From positions 2,170,001 to 2,234,000 of the forward strand of contig OZ005705.1 of assembly GCA_963930775.1 (NCBI GenBank): DNA of 64,000 nucleotides, written 5' to 3'. Each line of letters begins with the position of its first letter. The stretch's first letter is position 1. Source of the DNA: Cliona cf. orientalis (Eukaryota; Porifera; Demospongiae; Clionaida; Clionaidae). A model generated the notes under the pieces. That model made no database searches, had not been told where the DNA came from, and was given only the letters and a program-made list of their open reading frames with translations. Shown here in pieces: positions 325 through 59,319 of this stretch. Position numbers and translations under genes: made by a program.

Positions 325-3300
325 AGGGGGGAGCGATATTCGAGGTATCAGTATCGCGTTTATACGCGAAAGAGCACCCAGGTAAGTTACTCACGCTAGC
401 TTCATAATTTGAATAGTAACAGCAGCTACTATTGATTTCAGCCTTATTCAAGCACGGTTACCAATCCAGAGCAAGGGCGGCTGCGATACTTCACCATGTG
501 TCGTCATAGATTATAATTGGGGAATATATAATCTATGGTGTCGTTGAGTGCAGCCCTATTAAGTGGGCGTGGCTACGATCACTAGCCATGTATGCTCGTT
601 TATTTCTGCTGAAACGCTAGCTAGGCTTAGTTTTACAGCTGTTTAGTACGTTACTTATCGATTTTACATAGACTATTCGAAGTTCAGTCCTCATAAACCA
701 GCCATTTGAGCTGCGTTTTCAAGGGCAGCTACACATGGGCACATATTCGAGTAATCACTAGACATTAGCAGGAAATTGAGCCCAAAGTGGGGGGTGGGCC
801 GACATTCCGTAGTGGGCCCTCTTTCGCGAGGGTACAGTATATACAATGAAAAATATTTTTCAGACGATCATTTTTTTTATATAGTCCGTATCCTAACCTG
901 GAGGGCATAAAGATGTGCTCTGCTACAAGTTCAGAAGGCCCATGATCGGTCAGAATTGCAGTACCGTGTGCACAAACAAATGTGGCCATAGAGATGCATT
1001 CTCGAATAAACGGCGGAAGTGCTGCGCATTTGGAAAGGCCCTGCTCAGCAGGCCACCGAGCCTCAAGCGAAGCGCTAGCGAGAGACGAGGTCTGTTCTTT
1101 GTCATAGTCTGGTGGTAAATTCGACCAGAGAGAGAACGTCACCATTGCAGTGGCGATAGCTGCTGCATCGAGGGGTGTGTTCTACGAAGCAATAGGTTCA
1201 AAGTTCGTGCTGCTGCATGCGCACTATTGGTTGACATACAGCTAGGGAGATAGATTTTCTCTGACTATGTGAGCTGACCGTCAATAATTTATGCATATTA
1301 GCCACATTATCCCATGATTGTTACATCAAACATACTTGTTGTATATACAAGTACCGTGTTTATGCTAATAAAATTCTAATTAGATTCGTGTTCTAGGACT
1401 TCCATAATGTAGACTGTGATGACTTTGATCAAAAAATCGTGCAAAAGTTAAAATCAAAATTGTATTAGAATAGACACGGTATGTCCATAAACTTGTTATC
1501 ATACATGGTAAAAGTAATAGCTATTAAATTTTAGCGTACCTCAGCATTTGATCCAGAGTCAAGGTCGCTAGCTGAGACATTGCCGATAGGTGTTCCAATC
1601 GGCTGATTCTCATAGATCATAAACTGATAATTGTTTGAATCGAATGTAGGTATGTTGTCATTGACATCGAGAATTTCAATGTTGACTGTAGCAGTGCCGG
1701 TCAGGGATGGATTGGAGCCTGGTTCACTGGCAAGAACTTCAAAGGTGTACGATTTCCTACAGCAATACATGCATGTAGTACCCAATTGAATTCGTCATAA
1801 TAATTAGCTATTCATAATACCACCAGTGACAGTAACAGAGTTTATTAATTTTACTATGCAGCTGCTTACGTTAGGCTCTCAAAATCTAGCCTGACACTAG
1901 GGCTTCTCAACAGAATCGTTCCGTCAGTTGGAAACACTGCAAATTCTCTGACGTCGGCTCTTGTAGTGTACTGGATCTCTTCAAGTCTATCACTGTCTGT
2001 GGCTCTTACTTGTCCAATTCGCACACCAACGCCAATGTTCTCTCTGGCAGTGAAATCTAGAGGAAGAATCAAGATGAAGATACAGCCGGATTGTAATAAG
2101 GATGGTAAAGGGTCGTTAATTATGTTAGCTACAAAACTATAGCAATACTGCTTCATATCTGACTATTATGTTGCAGATTGGCTAGCGCTACTGCTATAAG
2201 GATTATACTGTAATTCAGTGTTAGTTTATATTAATCCTACTCACTGTAGACAGCTTGATCAAAGACAGTTGGTTCATCGTTCAAGTTTCCAATGCTCACA
2301 GTGATTGGTGTGGGTTCACTCCTTCGCTGGTTCGTGATTCCGTTATCCTCCACAATCAATGTGATGTCGTTGTACTCAGCATTGTCTTCATAATCAAATG
2401 TAGCACTGAAACAAATTATAATATTATGCTGAATAAAAATCTCTGTCTCTCCCCTCCCCCCATCCCACTCTCTCTCCTTCTCTTTCTCTCCTGCTCTCTC
2501 TCTCTCTCACTCCCTTCCCACCATTACTACTGTTCCTTACTTTGCTCTAATCTGGCCAGTGTTGGTACCAGTGATCTCAGCAATGAAGAACCGGGCATCG
2601 CTCCCAATAAGGAATAGCTGACCAATCTCTGAGGCAGGACCTTGCTGATCTGAGTCAAACACTATGAACGAAACTATTACATTTCCTGGTGGTTGATTTT
2701 CATTGACAGTGGCAGTGTATCTCGACTGGTTCAGTATGGGATTGTAGAAGTTGTCTGGGGATACCACGGTGATTGTTACATCAACAGTGGCATTCATAGG
2801 CTCTGGCATTCCGTTGTCAGTAGCAACAACAGTAATCATGTAGGCCTGTATAAATTATGTATAAATTGATTTTCAGTATGGGCCATGGCTACCATAGCTA
2901 TCTTTACCAACCTGACTCTCAAGTAGCCTAATATTCCTGATGACTCCATTTTCATCGATGCTGAAGTTTCCACTAGAGATATCCGGAAGAAGGTCGTAGC
3001 TGATGATATTATCACGTCCATCTCTGTCAGTTGCTGTCACCTGAATGAGATAGGTTCCAGTAGGGGCAGTGTTTTGAGCACTTGTCATGTAGGATGATTG
3101 TTGGAATACGGGAAGATATTCATTGATGTCGTCCAATTGGAGTGTTAGAGTGTGAGTGATACTCAACATCGGAACACCACCATCCTCTGCAATGATCAGT
3201 ACTTGGAGCGACTCAACTGGTGTACCCTGTGAATTTTTGAACAAAGGTTAAATTAATATTATTGAGCTTAAAATACTATCAATAATTATAATTTTTGTCT

Positions 3301-5668
3301 GCTTACTTCAAAATCTACTTCTTCATTCAAGAACAACTCGTTATTCTTAGTCAAGCCGAATACATTCCCACTCTGTTCTAAACGAATAGTCACTTCTCCA
3401 GCAGAGAGAGTATCATCGTCCCTTGCTGTGATGTTGAGCAGAATATACTCAGGCTGGGTATCCTCAGGAACTGTTACTGTTGAGGGCAGTGGAGGGTCAA
3501 AATATGGCTGATTATCATTGATCTCTGTCACGAAAACTTCAACAGTGGTTGTGTTGGAGAGTGCTGGGGTGCCTCCATCAGTTGCTGTGACGTTGAAGCT
3601 ATAGAACGATTGACGCCGTCTATCAAGATCAGTGTTAACTGTGATATTTCCTGACTCCATGTCAATCTCAAATTCAGTAATACTTGGGAGAATCTGATAG
3701 AAAATCTCTGCATTTGTGCCGCTGTCCAAATCCTCGGCTACAACTTGGAGTAGAAAGGTGCTGATGTTTGTAAGCTCAGGTACTCGTACTGAGTAGGGGG
3801 CATCGACAAAAACAGGACTGTTGTCATTCACATCGTTAACTGTCACACCGATGGTCGTCTCTGAGGTTCTACGGAAGAGTTCGTTTCCCTGATCAACAGC
3901 ACGAACAGAAAGAGTGAAGTTGGTCGTAGACTCACGATCAAAAGGATCAACTAGGTAGAGTTGGCCTACTGTAACTTCAAGAGTGTCATCATAAGAGAAA
4001 GTCAAATTGAAGGCATCAGAGTAGTCAGATGGGAGAAGTGTCAAACTAACTCTTCCTTCGTCTCCCTTGTCACCATCAGTGACAGTAAAACGAAATGTCT
4101 CATTTTGTGGGATTTCTTCCTCAACAATGAAAAAATCAAGATTTTCTTGGAACATAGGCTGATGAAAGTTTGGTGCAGCAACATTCACAAAAAACGAGGC
4201 ACTAGAGCTAAGTGATGGAGTTCCAGCATCTCTTGCTACAACCACAATATTGTACAACTGAACCCCTAGTAATGGAGCAAGGCTGCGAGTGGTAAGGTTC
4301 CCAGACTCTGGGTCGATGGAAAATGGGAGGGAAGGATCAGCAAGTGAGAAGGTAATGTCAACATTGGGTGTGCCGGGTTCATCAGCATCAGTGGCATTGA
4401 CAACAAATAACTCGGTACCCACAGGGGAGGACTGGGCAATGGTGATGCTTTCCCTGAGAAAATAATATGTAGTGTATTAGTGAAACCATCAAGCCAGCTT
4501 ACTATCATACGTGCATATAAAGCTTACCCTCCATTGTGGATCTCTGGAGGATTATCATTGAAATCTGTTACAGTGACAGTGACAGTTGCCGTTGCACTTG
4601 CTCCCTCAGAGTCTGTAGCAACTACAGTGAAAGTATACGCAGCAATGGTCTCTCGATCCAAAGCAGTTGCATCCAGGACTATGAGGGTATCATCAAGACT
4701 CCGAAATCCAAAGATATCATCGATTGGCCTACGATTAGTGGCGGTCAGATTTTGGCCAATCACTAGGCTGGGAGCACCTGCAATGAGTGTATATGTACAA
4801 GCAAAGTATGATTAAGTAACCTATACACTTCTTGTCATAAAATTGGTACTGACAAGGGCTTATAAGCCCTTGATACTGACGATAGAAGATTTGTTGTAGC
4901 TACCTGTATCATCGGTGACTCCGATGAGTCCAATCTCATCATTATCTTTGGAGTCCTCAGAAAGCCTGAATCTGTAGTTCCTTTGAGAAAAGGCTGGAGG
5001 GCTGTTGATAATGGCAGCTCTGACTGTGATAGCGAATGTCCTCCGAATGGATCCATCGACATCGGCTATAATTAACTGCAAATTGATTTCACGTCACATA
5101 ATTATTATACACCAAGCATATCATCCAAGCAAAATTTAATGCTAAGGTTACAACTGTAGACCTAACTAGGTCACACATGGATCAGGTTAACTGACTTACA
5201 TCAATAAAGTACTGCCCAACTTGAGTGCCTGGAGCTACAGTGAGGGTATTGTTCACTAGAGAAATGCCCTCAGGGTTGAAACGGATCTCATAGGTGAGGG
5301 AAGTATTATCACTCGTTGAGTAGGCCATGATGGGAAAGGATTCACCAGTCTCATTGTTAGCTATAAGTACAGTGTTGGGACCAAGGTACACCACAGTGGC
5401 TGCAGAGTGAGAAAGGGAGAGAGACAAAATGAATTATGCTAGTTGGCATTCAAGCATGGAAAGGGAGAAAATTAAATAGCAATAATTACTGATTTTAGAT
5501 TATGAGTTATTAATAATTTAGGAAATGGCTATTCTCACCTTGGCAAATGGGAAGGAAGCACACCAGTAGAAGAGCAGCTGCAATGGCAGTCTTTCTGCAA
5601 GAAGTGGGTGTGGCTGGAGCAGGTCCCATCACCAAAGTGGCAGGCTTCCTGCCAGAAGAGGTGCACAT
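1..5668 (-). CDS. Cadherin-repeat cell-adhesion protein, N-terminal part (gene runs off left edge)
   Basis: Eleven exons were read on the minus strand: 5539-5668, 5200-5399, 4904-5075, 4528-4777, 3307-4453, 2912-3226, 2541-2845, 2245-2405, 1870-2056, 1540-1756 and 1-139. All junctions are GT-AG and the phases agree, giving about 1,074 residues. The start at 5668 is followed by a hydrophobic stretch (AIAALLLVCFLP-like, residues about 28-41) consistent with a signal peptide. The first ~120 residues lack clear cadherin motifs; from about residue 120 onward repeated LDRE/FDRE, DxDSG and DxNDNxP motifs mark roughly eight to nine extracellular cadherin repeats that bind calcium at repeat junctions. 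No transmembrane segment or cytoplasmic tail is in the window, so the subclass (protocadherin-like, FAT-like or other) cannot be decided. The cadherin family assignment is firm. Two small inverted-repeat elements lie in its last visible intron. Confidence 0.93.
238..839. mobile_element. Non-autonomous TIR element (MITE), ~602 bp, in cadherin intron
   Basis: The ends are inverted repeats of about 27 bp with one mismatch. The left end reads TAC(C)GTACCCTCGCG and continues AAAGAGGGCCCA at 238-264; the right end at 813-839 is its complement. The arm is itself partly palindromic (CCCTC...GAGGG). Termini are compatible with a TA target duplication. No coding capacity is seen inside. A 28-base G run sits just inside the left arm. 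Confidence 0.8.
297..324. repeat. Poly-G tract (28 G)
   Basis: Uninterrupted G run, followed by A and more G, inside the 238-839 element. Length may be affected by polymerase slippage or assembly. Confidence 0.95.
1352..1481. mobile_element. Short TIR element, ~130 bp, in cadherin intron
   Basis: Left end TACCGTGTTTATGCTAATA matches the complement of the right end (TACCGTGTCTATTCTAATA) with two mismatches, and similarity continues into an AATT stretch. TA at both edges suggests a TA target site. No ORF. Confidence 0.65.
2442..2511. repeat. CT-rich low-complexity tract in cadherin intron
   Basis: Runs of CTCTCT and CCCTC between exons 7 and 8 of the cadherin gene. Read on the gene's own minus strand the tract is GA-rich, so it is not its polypyrimidine tract. 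Confidence 0.8.
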
Positions 5669-51909: not shown

Positions 51910-54213
51910 TCAACAGAATCGATGTACTTTGAATTTTATGACAGGAACCAAGGGAGGGAAAATTACAAAAATGATAAAAGTTAATAACATCATGGTTAAA
52001 ACTGCACTCAGCACTATGTAACTGATGCTTGAGTGACGATCTATGAACAAAACAAGAAAGTAAATGGCAAACCCAATAATTAAAATGAAAGAATAAGAAT
52101 AAGAGAAAGCACGAAGTAATGTCGTAGAAAATGTACGATTAGGAATCTTATAGGTCAGAATAGATAAGACTATCATGACGAAGAGTAAGCTTAATTTGTA
52201 TGTGAAAAATAATCCCACCCACAAGAAAGTGTACTTAGAGTTACAACTCTGATCCAAATAGACATCTTGAATGTTTTTGTTTTCTACTACGTACTCCAGG
52301 AATTCAAATCTATTCGGGTCAACAGCTGTCCATGTGATGGCAAGTAGGACATCAAATAACACTAAAACTAGCAACATGGCAAGAAGCTTAGGGTTTGAAA
52401 TGAAATCTCCAGGCTTTAGATAGTGTATAAAGATCCGATAGAGACGCCAAGCTCTCACTGTGATTATGCCCATCATGAGCGTAAAGCTTATTGGCAGGAA
52501 CCACGTCCATACCGTCTGACATATTATTCCACCAACTAGAGGACTCACCTCTGTTGTAAAGAATATAGAGTTGAGAAACATGGCCAGTATATGTATGTAT
52601 GCACCTAAAAAGGCCAATTGTATCAACTTTGGACTAGAAGCTTTCACAAACTTTGTATTATAGCACATGAATGTGAATATGTGAATTGTCACAACAGTAA
52701 CAAGCATCACACAGTGGGTAGCGAGAAAGAAGCCAACAATCCCGGTATGAGGAAGACCCACAACTCTTTTACGATCGGGAAGAGTACTGAAATGATGTAG
52801 AGTTACTACCTCTGTGCCATTGCTGTAGGCTAAAAGCCTTTTGCTTCCACTGATTATCTGGTATAGGTTAGCTGTACGATAGATAAATCCAGTGTTTACG
52901 TTGAAATGGATGCGACCTGACAGTCCTTGAAAATCAAGCAGATAAAATTCACGTAAAGCAGCTTTACTGAAACATAGACTCCCTAATTCTACAGTTCCCA
53001 TGATATTATCTACGATGATTAGTTTATTCAATATTATTGCCCAAGCCCAAACAGCATCGTATAAGGGATAATCCCACCTTGATGGTGGCATATCCAACGC
53101 CTTTTCATGTTCGCTGTTGTATTTGTCAACTCCTTGCTTGTATAAGCATAGAAACTCATCTAACGTGATATTTGGAAATAGATTAGCATGTGTTGCTGTT
53201 GACATTCGATGATTCACAAAGAAACTTCCCTCTAGAGCTTCTAAGTTATTAAACGAGCAGTTGTATTCCTTATTACTGTAATAAAACGTGATATCTGTAC
53301 TTGTGAAATCATCAACCCATTGACTCACTAAGACCCACTGATATTTAGGGTACCCGAGATTCATGTGGTATGCCAAACACATGATCCTTTTTGTGTGTTC
53401 CAATGGTGCAAACACAAACACTATGCGTAGTCGGCTGCTCAAAATTTCATCAAGAGGGTAGTGAGTCAGTGTGAAAGCAGAAAGATAAGCAATTCCAACA
53501 GTCTTATCAACAGAAGCAACGAACTCTTTCATAATGGCGCTGTAGTAGAGCTGATCCATATCACACAGAACTGAAATGTGACTCCAGCCACTTTCATGCA
53601 TAAGCTTGAGTAAAAGATCCACCAAGGATTGAGAAGAGCCCAGGATTCCTAGTGAGTATGGAAATTCTGTACGGTTGGCAAGCCTAGGTGATCCCGAACC
53701 GTGTAGCAGAACTGCCCTCATTTCTGGATGGTGGTTTGTAATAGAGGATACTTGTATGGAGGAGCGGGTACAAAGTGGGCCAATAATTCCAACAATTCTT
53801 TGTTTCTGTTCACCTCCGGATCCTCCAGGGAACATGCCACTTGTTAGTCCCTCAAGAGTGTCAGTGGTGATTTCACAACCAGCTTCTTTGTGAATCAACT
53901 CCAGCTTGTAACCAGTGAGGAAATCTGATCTGTTGTTGATTTGTTCAACTGCCATCTCTATTGCTGGGAGGGTGTTATGCCAGGATGGATACTGACCTAA
54001 AGACTCCATTGATTTTATGGATCCATTTATAGTAGTTGGCAGTAAAACAAGAAGCTGGAGGGGATTTAGTCCAGAATACTCATCCTCAGTTGGTAGCTGG
54101 TTAGAGTACTGCTTGGCCATGGCCCAGCCTTGGCTAATCATAAATGGCTGCTCTAAGCCTATAGCTAGATACACTGAGACTACTAACCACTTGCAGCCAA
54201 GCATTGTCAACAT
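51910..54213 (-). CDS. Class C GPCR, GABA-B-receptor-like, copy 2
   Basis: Single exon, 767 residues, ATG at 54213 (the in-frame TTG at 54228 is not used). Signal peptide in residues 1-22. The Venus-flytrap domain (LLVLLPTTINGS, IEMAVEQINNRSDFL, GIIGPLCTRSS, WSHISVLCDMDQ, YQWVLVSQWVDDF, PLYDAVWAWA) and seven-helix region (TKFVKASSPKLIQ, TLMMGIITVRAWRLYRIF) align along the whole length with copy 1, so the pair is a tandem duplication. The two are clearly diverged in the ligand lobes, suggesting different ligands. The cytoplasmic tail is about ten residues and has no coiled coil. GABA-B-like genes are known to be multiplied in sponges. Confidence 0.9.
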   Translation of the reverse strand: MLTMLGCKWLVVSVYLAIGLEQPFMISQGWAMAKQYSNQLPTEDEYSGLNPLQLLVLLPTTINGSIKSMESLGQYPSWHNTLPAIEMAVEQINNRSDFLTGYKLELIHKEAGCEITTDTLEGLTSGMFPGGSGGEQKQRIVGIIGPLCTRSSIQVSSITNHHPEMRAVLLHGSGSPRLANRTEFPYSLGILGSSQSLVDLLLKLMHESGWSHISVLCDMDQLYYSAIMKEFVASVDKTVGIAYLSAFTLTHYPLDEILSSRLRIVFVFAPLEHTKRIMCLAYHMNLGYPKYQWVLVSQWVDDFTSTDITFYYSNKEYNCSFNNLEALEGSFFVNHRMSTATHANLFPNITLDEFLCLYKQGVDKYNSEHEKALDMPPSRWDYPLYDAVWAWAIILNKLIIVDNIMGTVELGSLCFSKAALREFYLLDFQGLSGRIHFNVNTGFIYRTANLYQIISGSKRLLAYSNGTEVVTLHHFSTLPDRKRVVGLPHTGIVGFFLATHCVMLVTVVTIHIFTFMCYNTKFVKASSPKLIQLAFLGAYIHILAMFLNSIFFTTEVSPLVGGIICQTVWTWFLPISFTLMMGIITVRAWRLYRIFIHYLKPGDFISNPKLLAMLLVLVLFDVLLAITWTAVDPNRFEFLEYVVENKNIQDVYLDQSCNSKYTFLWVGLFFTYKLSLLFVMIVLSILTYKIPNRTFSTTLLRAFSYSYSFILIIGFAIYFLVLFIDRHSSISYIVLSAVLTMMLLTFIIFVIFPPLVPVIKFKVHRFC

Positions 54214-54963
54214 CAGTATTTCAAACAAACTCTAGAATAATGATTTTTATGTCCTGCTTTAATAATTATATCAAGCGTATAAAATAATAACTAACTAATT
54301 ATAAGTTTTGGTACTTGTTGGAAGTGGAAGGAAATGACATGCATAATTAATATGACATTGTTCATCCTACAATATTATTATTATTCAATTAATACAAGCA
54401 ATCTTCAGTAGTGTGAGATAGTGAATACATAATATTATTCTTTATGATGAAACGCTGCCTCTCTTAAGCTTCCTCATGACTATAGCTAATGACTGTTTGA
54501 TATTTGCCACTCAATTTACAAGTGAAAGCACCAGGAAGCACTAAATCTATAGGCACCCAATGTACATGTACATGTAATACAATGCATGTATGTACGTACG
54601 TATAGACCCATTGCAATTACGTCATAAAAATTAATAGGAAATTTCCGGATATCTCCGTACATGGACACACAATACTTAAACGAGGAAGTTGGGGTTAAAT
54701 ATTGCAATACGCGAAAGTTTCCAACGCGCGATCGTTTGCGGACTGCGGGTATTTAAGGCGCATGCCCAGGGCACGACCTTTGACCTCGCCGCCAAGATTC
54801 AAATTCGGCGAGTTTGCCATGGCTATGAAGCCATTCTCTTACCACTGTGAAGCCCTCACAATGCACTTTACATAGCATGCGCGGTACCATACAAGCGCGC
54901 CAAACAATAGAGATTTGAACAGCTGCTGTCTGACAGTTTCATAACAAAAAAACTTAGCAAATA
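54214..54963. promoter_or_regulatory. Upstream region of the P2X7-domain gene, with inverted-repeat copy
   Basis: Contains a 60-bp mini-element at about 54317-54377 (TTGTTGGAAGTGGAAGGAAA ... ATGACATTGTTCATCCTACA) whose outer part is repeated in inverted orientation at 58865-58890. Near 54673 TTAAACGAGGA is also found inverted at 58839-58849. A TATTTAAGG TATA-like word occurs at about 54749-54757, about 210 bp before the ATG. Confidence 0.5.
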
Positions 54964-55714
54964 ATGGCTTCACAGGCAAAACTCAAGGTGAGCTAGCTGA
55001 ATATCAACAAAACATAATAAATAATAATTAAATATCCATTAGCTTGAAGTATACTACAAGGAACAGCCTCCAAATGACTTCTTGGAGGAATTCAGAGTCT
55101 TGGTAGCCTCCCATCCAGGGATAGAGCTCTCTTCCACAAGGTGCATCCTTGACAGCTGCCAGTCTACTAGTTCTTCCAGCTCTTCTGTTACTGGTCAAGT
55201 CACTGCTTCCACAGCAGAGAAGTCCAAGAAAGGTTATCCTGCAGTTACTAAACATTCCCACCAATATTTACAGAGCTTTATACATTAATATAGTGGTAAC
55301 TTATCTTTGTAGGTCCATGTGGGTACGATCCTCCAGAGCTCAATGGACCCAATGCCTGTCCGTACTGCCACCTCTCCCCTTGTGTAGTAGACCGACCACC
55401 CAGCTGGGTCAGGGGCTCCTCGGCACCCAGCCTCGCAAACAATTCTAAACGCTACAGTCTGTACAGGAAATTTTGGACCTTTCTGAATCAGTTAGGAGTG
55501 TGGAACCATCCTGAATATGCGCACTATAAATACACCAGGACGAGTGTACTGGACACCAGGGATGTGCTGCCTGCATGTGTAGTAAGGGTAAGTATAGGTA
55601 GTCTACAACCATAGGAACTTACAACAAGTGTGATCTTTTCAGGAGGTGCGTGGTCGATTTCCAAATCCACCCGGAGTCCCTTACACCGACTTCCAACCAT
55701 CATCACACATCTAA
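54964..55714 (+). CDS. P2X7 intracellular (ballast) domain protein, 186 aa
   Basis: Four exons: 54964-54987, 55043-55232, 55313-55587, 55643-55714; phases agree, 186 residues. The N-terminal third is acidic/Ser-rich (FLEEFRVLVASHPGIELSS). The rest matches the cysteine-rich zinc-binding ballast domain of vertebrate P2X7 C-termini: CGYDPPELNG, NACPYCHLSPC, YSLYRKFWTFLNQLG, and VLPACVVREVRGRFPNPPGV then YTDFQPS, corresponding to the P2X7 order Cys cluster, AYRCY, LPSCCRWRIRKEFP, YSGF. There are no P2X channel helices, so it is a stand-alone ballast-domain protein, a form known in invertebrates. Function unknown; zinc and nucleotide binding are possible by analogy. It is convergent with the transposase-like gene, 64 bp between stop codons. 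Confidence 0.8.
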
Positions 55715-55778
55715 TATAGTCACACTCATGTACACATACTATTAGGCAGTTTCACACACTTACATGTTGCTAGTTCAT

Positions 55779-58582
55779 TTATTCTTGCTGTTCCACCTCA
55801 TCAACTTCATCCTCCGGTATATCTTCCCCATCAGCTAATAAATCATCCTCCTCATCACCCACATCCACATCACTATCGTTCTCGTCCACTTCCCTATAAG
55901 ATTATGAAAAGAAAAACACTGGGGTATACACTAGGTCACTCTCTCCAACCTCAATATAACTTCAGGTTAGGATTCACTTAGAAGGGGGAGAAAGGGTGGG
56001 AGCAAGGGCCGAGATACATGCAAACATGCATAATACATGTACATGTACATGCAAGTGTATATGAACATGTGCATACACACAATAATACTGTACATGAAGT
56101 ATATACTACACCATTATCCACCATACAAGATGCACTCACTCACCTGAGGTCGGTAACCTTCCAACGAGTGTATGTCCTCCAGATATCACCAACAAAATTA
56201 AAAGTCTTCTTGACTAGCACCTTCATGGGAGTTCTTCGGTCAGGTCTCCTCATATCCAGAACAAAATGCTCACTTGTGCTGGCTCTTTGTACATTCTCAT
56301 TCTAGATATTAGTGTGCCGGGAGGGGGGGGGGGGTGGGGGGTGAGAGTCAACATGTGTGAACACTATAAATTGTGAGCAATATTATACCCAATCCATAAT
56401 AGCAAGGTTCATTCTCATCTTGAAGGTGGTGGAGCCGAAATGAATACGTTTGGGAAGGTAAGTGAGCAACTGATGGTTGAACGACTCGATCCAGAAAGTA
56501 TCCCGACACTAATGATAGATTAACTTGCTCAACACATGTTGTCAAACCTTTCCAAGTACTTACCCGACAGTATGATTCCGCATTCTTGTAAATGAGAGTG
56601 GCCTTGAGTGCCTTCTCATATGCCTGTATTGCAGCAGGATCGGTGAGTCGCAACTTCGAGGGACTGTACCCAGAGCGTCTACAGAAGGATTCTTCGTGGC
56701 ACTGGGAGTGCTTGTTCTTTGTATAGCAAGAAGAATTGTGTAAAGTCATACATAAGAAGGACACTATATGCTTCTGACTCACCTGGTAGTGGCTAATAAT
56801 GTTTAGAATGCTCTCCCTAAGCTTTGTTGGAGACTGGGCACAGTTTTTCATGCAGTAGTACAGATGGACTTTTGTGCTTTTGCCTAATTACATGTACATG
56901 CATGTAGAAGATCATAATGGTGGAGACTCATGAGTTGGTAACTTACATTTGTCTGATAACTCTACAAACCAAGATTTTCCTTCTGTCTTTTTGGTACCAC
57001 ATGAGATCTTCCTCATGCCCTTTGCTACATTCTTGGTACCTAATTAAAGCACACTGATCACCATCACAAGTATTGGGAATCAGTAACTGTACCATGCCAC
57101 GTGTCGTATGAGTTCAGGAGATGTAAATCCTCGGTGATGTAATTCTTGACTGTTGCTGCATTATCATGCGCTACTTCCACAACCTTCAGATCTGCATACA
57201 TGTATAGATCTAATTCAATAATCAATGTTCACATAAATACGTGAAATATACCACCTTGTTCAAGGACTTGAGGCAGTACTGCTTTGGTGGCCTCAAGTTC
57301 CCTTGTTTGAGCGATGGCATGCTCCTTTCTGGATACTGTTGAACAGCCAAGAATTCGTTTGGTGCTATCATAATAATTATAATACAATAACGTATGTGTA
57401 CATGTAACGTATCAGGTTCTATACACCTATTCACAACAACAATTGAACACATAATTACCTTCCAGACAAGCAGGGGACAGTGGTATGGAAGGCATTGGAT
57501 GTCGAGTCGTGTCGAGCATCAGTAATAACCCACTGTTGAGAGATACAACATTATTTATCATTAATTTGTAGCAGGGTTACAAATGTGCACATACGTACCT
57601 CACCACTAGCAGCGTAATGTGGCAATGCTTTCACTTCTGTGATAGCTTTCATCATTGATAACTTGGCACAGGTGTTTACTGCTTCCAAGTACCCACCACT
57701 TTTGTAGACTAGCAAATAGCAAAGAGTCAATCGACCATCACTCCATTTCTTTTGCAAACTCACCCGAATTGATATACCATGGCCCCAGTGTGCCCAAGTT
57801 TGCATGAGTGGAAAAATGGATGTACTGGCTCGGCAGAATACCAGCACAGGTGAACGAATGCACGATCCTGAAAATATTTCAGTACCTAGCTCTTACAATG
57901 GAAAGTAATGGATACTTACTTCTGGTTAATAAGGTAGCGTCCTCCAAGTGTTCGTGAACTGGCCCACCGCTGCTTCTGTTTACACTGCTGACACTGAAAC
58001 TCGACACGGAGGACATGTCCTCTCTGAGGTACACGCATAAACACCAACTAAATATTTGATAAGTTCACTTGAATGCCATTCACACCTGAACAGTCTTGAT
58101 CATCTTCCGTGCACTAGCTTGGCACTGACATGGTTGTGTGAGCCCAGCGCAAAGATCCTCAAACGTCTTGCGCTCACAAACAAACAATGATTGGGCTTCA
58201 TCATTGCCTTCATCACCGGGTACAAAGAATCCTAAGCACAATAGTTAGTTAGTTAGTTTGTTGACTAAGTTATTACGTGAATCTAATACACACCTGAGTT
58301 TTCCAGCATTGTCATAGATCCTGTAGGGACTGCCTGGCTTCGAAACTGATCTCCAGTGCACGTGGTAGCAGGTGGAGGAGTGGCTTCAGCCAAATCCAAT
58401 AGAGAGCTAAGTAGCTCGCGACTGTCCAGCGGCGGTGAGCCTCTGGGAGCGAGTCTCAGCTTAGCGCTCTCCACCCTCGACAAGAACGACTTCTTGCTAT
58501 CCTCACTGGCGAAGTTCAGCTCCATCGTATAGCGAAATCCTAGTCTCGCGCGCTTCTTTCTCTGCTCATTCAAAGTAGCCAT
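55779..58582 (-). CDS. DDE-transposase-like protein, 14 exons, possibly domesticated
   Basis: Exons: 58294-58582, 58086-58231, 57920-58047, 57764-57867, 57599-57708, 57459-57532, 57252-57364, 57093-57191, 56947-57039, 56783-56883, 56564-56716, 56389-56508, 56144-56301, 55779-55893; total exactly 601 codons in phase. Order of features: basic N-terminus (NEQRKKRAR), a zinc-type patch FQCQQCKQKQRWAS, VYKSGGYLEAVNTC, then a DDE/RNase H-like core with first acid VITDARHDS, second VVEVAHDNAATVKNY, NSYDTWHGTKNVAKGM, and third ESFNHQLLTYLPKRIHF, ending in an acidic tail. This order matches a widespread, poorly named animal transposase group (DxRxDSPG ... TDRH ... FDVWH ... YHxxLLxYAPKR). No stop or frameshift. 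Introns are 38-250 bp, mostly about 60, far smaller than in neighbouring genes. It could be a young autonomous element or a domesticated gene. Confidence 0.78.
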
Positions 58583-58890
58583 TTTTTTCCTTACAGGTGC
58601 CTTCGAAAAGGTGTCTCTGGGGTGCCTCGCGCTTTCTTTATATTCGCGCTATGGCGCCAACGCTGGTTCGCTGTACTGTACTGTGTGTCTGTCATGTGTA
58701 AAGTAGCTGGCGCCATTGCCATGGCATGGCAGATAACTCGCGAATTTTTTGTAATACAGCCATATTGGCTCATGTGACGGATGTGGTAAAATAAAGATTG
58801 CTTCCGTCCAGGGCGGGCCCTTTTATACCCCGCCTCCTCGTTTAATCCATGGCCAGTATGACATTGTTCATTTCCTCCCACTTCCTACAA
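58583..58890 (-). promoter_or_regulatory. Promoter of the transposase-like gene with TATA box and terminal repeat
   Basis: On the minus strand GGGTATAAAAGGG (core at 58821-58827) is a strong TATA box, about 240 bp before the ATG at 58582. Two TGGCGCCA palindromes lie within. The outer edge (58865-58890) carries TTGTAGGAAGTGGGAGGAAA, inverted relative to 54317-54340. Confidence 0.55.
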
Positions 58891-59106
58891 TAATATTATT
58901 ATTAATAATTATTATTAAGTTGTGTTAATGAAATAGACTCTTCTAGCAAATGGTTGGGCCAGGCCAATGATAAGATCATGCACACTTATCAAATTAATCT
59001 TTCTTTCATTTATTATTATAGAGATACGTAGAATAATAATACAATGAGTATTATAATAGTATACAGGACCTGGTGTGTACACAAGCATCTAGATCTAGCA
59101 TCCAAC

Positions 59107-59199
59107 TACGCCTTTTAAGAGACCCGAAGGCCCTGGGCTGTAGCATCCCGAGTGAAAGCGAGGGTGCTACTAAGGGCCTGAGGGTCTCTTAAAAGCGTA
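59107..59199. repeat. Large perfect-type hairpin (foldback), ~93 bp
   Basis: Outer arms TACGCCTTTTAAGAGACCC and GGGTCTCTTAAAAGCGTA pair with one bulge; GGCCCT/AGGGCC and GTAGCATCCC/GGGTGCTAC continue the stem to a loop of about 12 bases (GAGTGAAAGCGA). Confidence 0.8.
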
Positions 59200-59319
59200 G
59201 AGACCATTGGACGAGGTCTCTAACTGATTTAGAATATAGCAACTGTAACCGTGGTAGTTGACCTGAGGACTAGGCTACTGTTCGCTGTGCATCTTTCTTT
59301 GCCCTTGGCTATACTTGTA

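Follow-up and report, generated by a model that had tools for sequence, protein, structure and literature searches.

Why do two compact genes, one encoding a small cysteine-rich protein and the other a transposase-like protein, converge on each other in a sponge genome, and do they travel together? They lie in a 64,000-nucleotide stretch of Cliona cf. orientalis DNA (contig OZ005705.1, positions 2,170,001 to 2,234,000), hereafter called the window. The initial annotation, made from the sequence alone, had described a stand-alone gene for the P2X7 ballast domain beside a DDE-type transposase gene and had proposed that the two move as a unit. Our analysis shows that positions 54676-58845 of the window are a mobile DNA transposon carrying both genes. 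With a probability of roughly 0.85, it is a Kolobok-type (Kol0-like) cut-and-paste transposon, most likely of the sponge, with an accessory gene that is named KolX here by analogy of place and motif.

A mobile element larger than its two genes

The limits of the element were read from its copies. A search of the sponge's own genome (216.8 Mb) with 54964-58582 returned at least 79 matches, many of them partial. These included at least six near-full-length copies besides that of the window, 93-95% identical, and a seventh that is interrupted. Copies compared together with their flanks stop at 54676 and 58845. Among the fetched copies whose match reaches the end, which leaves out those stopping short (e.g., L014 and L017 on the right), TTAA flanks 17 of 17 left ends and 13 of 15 right ends; beyond it, the sequence varies between copies. 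Just inside lies an imperfect terminal inverted repeat starting with ACGAGG (ACGAGGAAGTTGGGG versus ACGAGGAGGC-GGGG). The proposal of a two-gene unit moving together is borne out by dispersed copies that end in TTAA and inverted termini and by the DDE fold described below, and the expected target duplications were found amid unrelated flanks. The unit exceeds the annotated 54964..58582, and its extent had to be redrawn to 54676-58845. Repeats near 54316 and 58890 were also considered as termini and were rejected because the copies end at 54676 and 58845.

Both genes were recovered where they had been annotated, intact, spliced and open throughout, with small introns and with stop codons 64 bp apart. 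The plus-strand gene (54964-55714) has four exons, GT-AG introns of 55, 80, and 55 bp, and a product of 186 amino acids (aa). The minus-strand gene (58582-55779) has 14 exons, GT-AG introns of 38-250 bp, and a 599-aa product with no internal stop. Homologs from other sponges, namely Halichondria panicea, Ephydatia muelleri, and Amphimedon queenslandica, can be aligned over the length of the 599-aa product and support its exon model; a partial homolog occurs in the coral Porites lobata. The features are as follows, with exons taken from the spliced model unless another basis is given.

54676..58845, no strand: whole transposon including both TTAA (ends of copies; unrelated flanks)
54676..54679, no strand: left TTAA, target site duplication (copy ends)
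54680..54694, plus strand: left terminal inverted repeat ACGAGGAAGTTGGGG
54964..54987, plus strand: KolX-like exon 1
55043..55232, plus strand: KolX-like exon 2
55313..55587, plus strand: KolX-like exon 3, holding C87, C90, C95, and C160 (spliced model, alignment of relatives)
55643..55714, plus strand: KolX-like exon 4 with stop (piece matched to the P2X7 C-terminus by hhalign)
55779..55893, minus strand: transposase exon 14 with stop
56144..56301, minus strand: transposase exon 13
56389..56508, minus strand: transposase exon 12, catalytic E (E477)
56564..56716, minus strand: transposase exon 11
56783..56883, minus strand: transposase exon 10
56947..57039, minus strand: transposase exon 9
57093..57191, minus strand: transposase exon 8, second D (D330) and DTWH 350-353
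57255..57364, minus strand: transposase exon 7
57459..57532, minus strand: transposase exon 6, first catalytic D (D264)
57599..57708, minus strand: transposase exon 5
57764..57867, minus strand: transposase exon 4
57920..58047, minus strand: transposase exon 3
58086..58231, minus strand: transposase exon 2
58294..58582, minus strand: transposase exon 1
58827..58841, minus strand: right terminal inverted repeat, minus-strand reading ACGAGGAGGCGGGGT
58842..58845, no strand: right TTAA, target site duplication (copy ends)

Class of the transposon

The minus-strand protein matches PF20700 in Pfam, and its DDE-like motif order is complete, as had been claimed: the catalytic residues D264 (ITDARHD), D330 (AHDNA), and E477 (WIESFNH) are present in sequence. 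The DTWH at 350-353 falls between D330 and E477, which fits the C/DxxH signature. A fold search returned DDE transposases, the closest being ISCth4, a bacterial insertion sequence, and Hermes, of the hAT type. Both share with the window protein a DDE/RNase H core with an inserted domain, but their sequence identity to it is only ~10-16%. ISCth4 and Hermes use other target sites than TTAA. A piggyBac-type transposase was considered and rejected, as Pfam at E ≤1 yields PF20700 and a weak ZNFX1 match only. In IMG/VR, 28 stretches fit a pattern for the transposase, none of which was confirmed.

These traits recall a described group. According to Kojima and Bao (2022, PMC9587614), KolX is the second gene of Kol0 Kolobok transposons, whose hosts include sponges. 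Like the Kol0 elements described there, the window element has a DDE transposase with C/DxxH, a TTAA duplication, and a second protein related to the P2X7 ballast. The Kolobok traits present are thus the TTAA duplication, C/DxxH between the second D and E, and terminal inverted repeats, and the trait expected of KolX, being encoded within the same element as the transposase, is seen at 42 of 46 transposase loci among the matches listed. Several observations weigh against the assignment. The termini are AC..GT, whereas the rule given for Kolobok in the same source is 5'-RR..YY-3', and four cysteines are near-invariant here in contrast to the seven conserved ones given there for KolX (PMC9587614). 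Moreover, no empty site was recovered: the joined flanks of the window copy matched only the flanks themselves and a repeat, with no match spanning the junction. Because the termini are AC..GT and not RR..YY, the element is filed as Kolobok-type (Kol0-like), a class suggested by motifs, and not as a formal member. As a separate observation from the joined-flank search, the left-flank piece 54601-54671 is a dispersed repeat occurring at no fewer than 28 places with 78-93% identity.

The same observations bear on an unlikely alternative, namely, that the element is a TTAA-inserting offshoot related to Kolobok, MuDR, and hAT, rather than Kolobok proper, with an accessory gene of its own. The AC..GT termini of the window family, the ACGAG left end of a second family described below, the smaller number of conserved cysteines in the accessory protein, and a fold search that leads to IS256-type and hAT enzymes without singling out Kolobok all speak for it. 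Nevertheless, TTAA, a ballast-like second gene, and DTWH between the second D and E together make up the Kol0 set described in PMC9587614. That the genes are an ordinary host pair spread by segmental duplication, which their spliced and intact state in the window might suggest, is highly improbable given copies that share exact end bases at TTAA within unrelated flanks, and given the DDE transposase fold.

As a Kolobok-type transposon, the element would work as follows. The 599-aa DDE transposase would cut at the ACGAGG termini, and the element would then insert into TTAA and duplicate it.

The KolX-like protein and P2X7

Database searches with the 186-aa KolX-like protein identified 18 homologs by single sequence and 78 by profile, mostly unnamed. 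Across 37 aligned relatives, four cysteine columns are near-invariant (32/34, 32/34, 34/35, and 32/33), whereas a fifth reaches only 16/34. It is a small protein with a cysteine cluster that probably binds zinc. Its direct resemblance to P2X7 is weak, which counts against the proposed relationship. The Pfam family P2RX7_C matches the window protein at E 0.02 with 15.2 bits, against a cut-off of 23.5, and reaches E 0.1 or better in 3 of the 37 relatives (best 0.00081). Comparison with P2X7 by hhalign gave E 0.0082 at a probability of 4.9%, over 16 columns at the C-terminus. Sequence searches of the PDB with KolX returned nothing at E 1 and, at E 5, two unrelated weak rows without P2X7. For an AlphaFold2 model of a KolX homolog (predicted local distance difference test score, pLDDT, 75.9), P2X7 was absent from the Foldseek and VIA rows, an absence that excludes nothing.

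Because of this weak resemblance, the link to P2X7 leans on Kojima and Bao (2022, PMC9587614), in whose account P2X7 arose through fusion of a P2X4-like gene with KolX. The suggestion that the P2X7 ballast began as the accessory gene of a DNA transposon agrees with that account; it is right but not new, having been published in 2022. The intact element supports this published idea. In another study (Rump et al. 2020, PMC7016195), P2X7 ballast/ZCD proteins and nanor are treated as host genes, and its text contains neither "transpos" nor "mobile". Those proteins are likewise small, with a cysteine motif and a C-terminal piece, and one comes from Amphimedon; they are host genes there, in contrast to the KolX-like gene here, which lies inside a transposon.

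Linkage of the two genes and a second family

The co-occurrence check proposed with the initial annotation was run in this genome, using loci hand-picked as distinct from the matches listed, with 73 of 498 candidates scored on the transposase side. Among those matches, KolX lies within 5 kb of 42 of 46 merged transposase loci, and a transposase lies within reach of 42 of 75 KolX loci. Random placement would give 0.16 loci, so co-occurrence exceeds chance, although the transposase loci within a family arose by copying and hence are not independent. The genes are thus neither single-copy nor unlinked in this genome. They are also convergent on a 3-kb contig titled as a Nitrosopumilus metagenome-assembled genome (JACERO010000088.1, L043), which is probably host carry-over in the Nitrosopumilus bin.

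The gene pair recurs in a second family of 19 copies, 98-100% identical over ~2.9 kb (L044 at C1:15174300-15177600 and 18 other places). Its KolX is ~47% identical to that of the window, and its transposase 65-73% identical over residues 466-510 or 466-564. The fetched stretch of L044 shows a convergent gene order and covers the second D, DTWHG, and E. Left ends read TTAA-ACGAG in 6 of 6 newly fetched copies and TGCA-ACGAG in L044 itself. Because the copies are 98-100% identical, very recent movement is suggested, which would make the function of KolX directly testable.

Coding state of the window family

Both genes are under coding constraint. Across the window copy and L009-L018, the pooled ratio of nonsynonymous to synonymous substitution (dN/dS) is 0.156 in KolX, compared with 0.233 in the transposase. 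When a strict model is applied, 2 of these 11 copies (the window copy and L009) have a transposase that reads through, and 6 have such a KolX, including L014 with an 18-base in-frame deletion; only the window copy has both genes open. In L011, L012, L013, and L015, the transposase differs by +2 or +8 next to the exon 3 acceptor, a shared change that may be bypassed by an alternative AG, and these transposases were scored neither dead nor intact. The four copies are mutually 99.1-99.8% alike across the KolX and transposase parts. L011-L015 are mosaic: in one 150-bp bin of KolX exon 3 they are 80-82% identical to the window copy, compared with 94-100% in nearly all other bins.

A subfamily without a transposase

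Ten fetched copies (L027-L036) have window-like ends and lack the catalytic stretch; judged by coordinates, the loss includes each of the three catalytic codons. A junction at 56484/57851 with 7-bp microhomology is common to 8 of the 10; L034 and L036 have a larger loss. A common stop codon in transposase exon 12 occurs in L027, L028, L029, L030, L033, and L035, five of which also share one in exon 13; L031 has neither. No transposase match is left in L036, which is reduced to KolX between the left end and a 24-bp right repeat. Two stretches are marked for the subfamily, in window coordinates:

56485..57850, no strand: catalytic-core stretch missing in the dead subfamily (copy comparison)
55043..56143, no strand: KolX cassette, 73-83% identical to the window copy in the dead subfamily (six copies examined)

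KolX is present in nine of the ten copies, having been lost from L032. Its codons are constrained. The ratio of nonsynonymous to synonymous changes per site (pN/pS) against the majority is 0.229 for the nine KolX genes, with no stop in aligned codons, and none of 1000 neutral simulations (mean 0.706) was as low; the dead transposase exons in these copies give 0.88. When each change is counted once, KolX shows 31 synonymous and 35 nonsynonymous changes versus 30 and 103, nonsense included, in the dead exons (Fisher p 0.0006; p 0.0009 for the six copies with common stops). For changes in at least two copies, the counts are 10:2 in KolX versus 4:15 in the dead exons (p 0.001), and singletons alone give p 0.042. 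With L035 and L031 left out, unique changes give p 0.006. If selection acts on moving copies, changes shared between copies are expected to be more constrained than singletons, as is the case here. Outside these counts are L026 (decayed, with another deletion and a broken KolX), L039 (no KolX), and a KolX-matching stretch at C1:21732400 that contains an internal TAA.

The codon constraint on KolX in a subfamily that has lost all three catalytic residues is what is new here. Non-autonomous copies that keep KolX are not mentioned in the accessible text of PMC9587614, the only publication our literature search found with both Kolobok and KolX. A broadly worded search for publications on non-autonomous elements with accessory genes found none, a result that argues weakly for novelty.

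What KolX may do

The dead subfamily offers a natural experiment on KolX, since the enzyme is missing and the accessory gene is constrained. Such derivatives would have to borrow a transposase in trans. Their constrained KolX is the reason for proposing a regulatory or licensing factor that would help the expression or movement of its own subfamily, a possibility to which we give somewhat less than an even chance. In this element, whose mobility is established, the pattern of selection suggests that KolX may have a role independent of the transposase carried by its own copy. More tentative still is the fuller version, in which KolX would be a subfamily-level licence or anti-silencing factor, exchanged as a cassette and kept by selection despite a dead transposase. 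If this were true, P2X7 would have captured a regulatory module of a transposon with a selective life of its own. Comparable cases are VANC of VANDAL21 and MURB of Mutator, accessory proteins in plant transposons, and the KP derivative of the P element: there, movement or silencing is influenced by a protein other than the transposase or by a deletion derivative. The comparison concerns the possible mode of action alone, and no sequence relation is claimed.

At about even odds, by contrast, KolX is useless in the dead copies, and its constraint is a leftover, either brought in by conversion or recombination from intact elements no longer seen or retained because the copies are too young. The evidence that favors this explanation also tells against a role for KolX. 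Gene conversion is visible in the dead subfamily. In six copies, the cassette is 73-83% identical to the window copy, compared with 85-99% for the surrounding 5' end and transposase exons 1 and 13. KolX there has a synonymous divergence (dS) of 1.06 from the window copy with a dN/dS (omega) of 0.14, marking the cassette as coming from another lineage, and shared variants, synonymous ones included, sort the copies into conflicting groups. Singletons, the youngest changes, are less constrained (pN/pS 0.50 versus 0.36 for all unique changes) and lose significance without L035 and L031 (p 0.22). KolX exons 2-4 are uninterrupted, meaning without an indel or insertion as matched, in only 5 of 9 copies (L027, L033, L034, L035, and L036). 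Frame-changing indels occur in L029 and L031, and L028 and L030, whose left flanks are unrelated, have insertions at an identical position in exon 2. As KolX is interrupted in four of nine copies, in two of these at one position amid unrelated flanks, movement does not depend strictly on a copy's own KolX. If the insertion in L028 and L030 were a single event, a KolX-broken copy would have moved, which would argue for help in trans; the inserts do not align with each other, and a single event is unproven.

Age alone is insufficient to explain the constraint, as synonymous change in KolX (51.5/1112 sites) is not below that of the dead exons alongside it (33.5/1176). The leftover explanation is further opposed by the deletion junction common to eight copies and the stops common to six, and by the lack of any intact relative of the donor lineage in the sponge's own genome among the matches listed.

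Further observations

Some dead copies contain additional sequence. L027 has ~3.5 kb extra between 55255 and 55280. In L035, KolX intron 2 holds a ~340-bp repeat (~3420-3765, query 448-793) found at ~30 places among the matches listed with 97-99% identity, another young mobile repeat. The KolX of L036 has inserts upstream and in intron 1, and its match stops 4 bases short of the end of the exon 4 query; within 1077-3436 of this copy, the first 80 bp of the left end are doubled, and an inverted right-end copy follows the 24-bp repeat. At L038 (C4:5592500-5598500), several tandem copies of a transposase exon 1 piece (window 58444-58620) adjoin a decayed core that is ~74% identical.

Two features lie outside the element. 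Window positions 59106-59309 are self-complementary and recur at 91-92% beside L013 and inside L017, forming a further small repeat family. On the minus strand, 51910-54231 is an intron-less open frame of 773 aa whose translation gives a receptor-like impression with several membrane spans.
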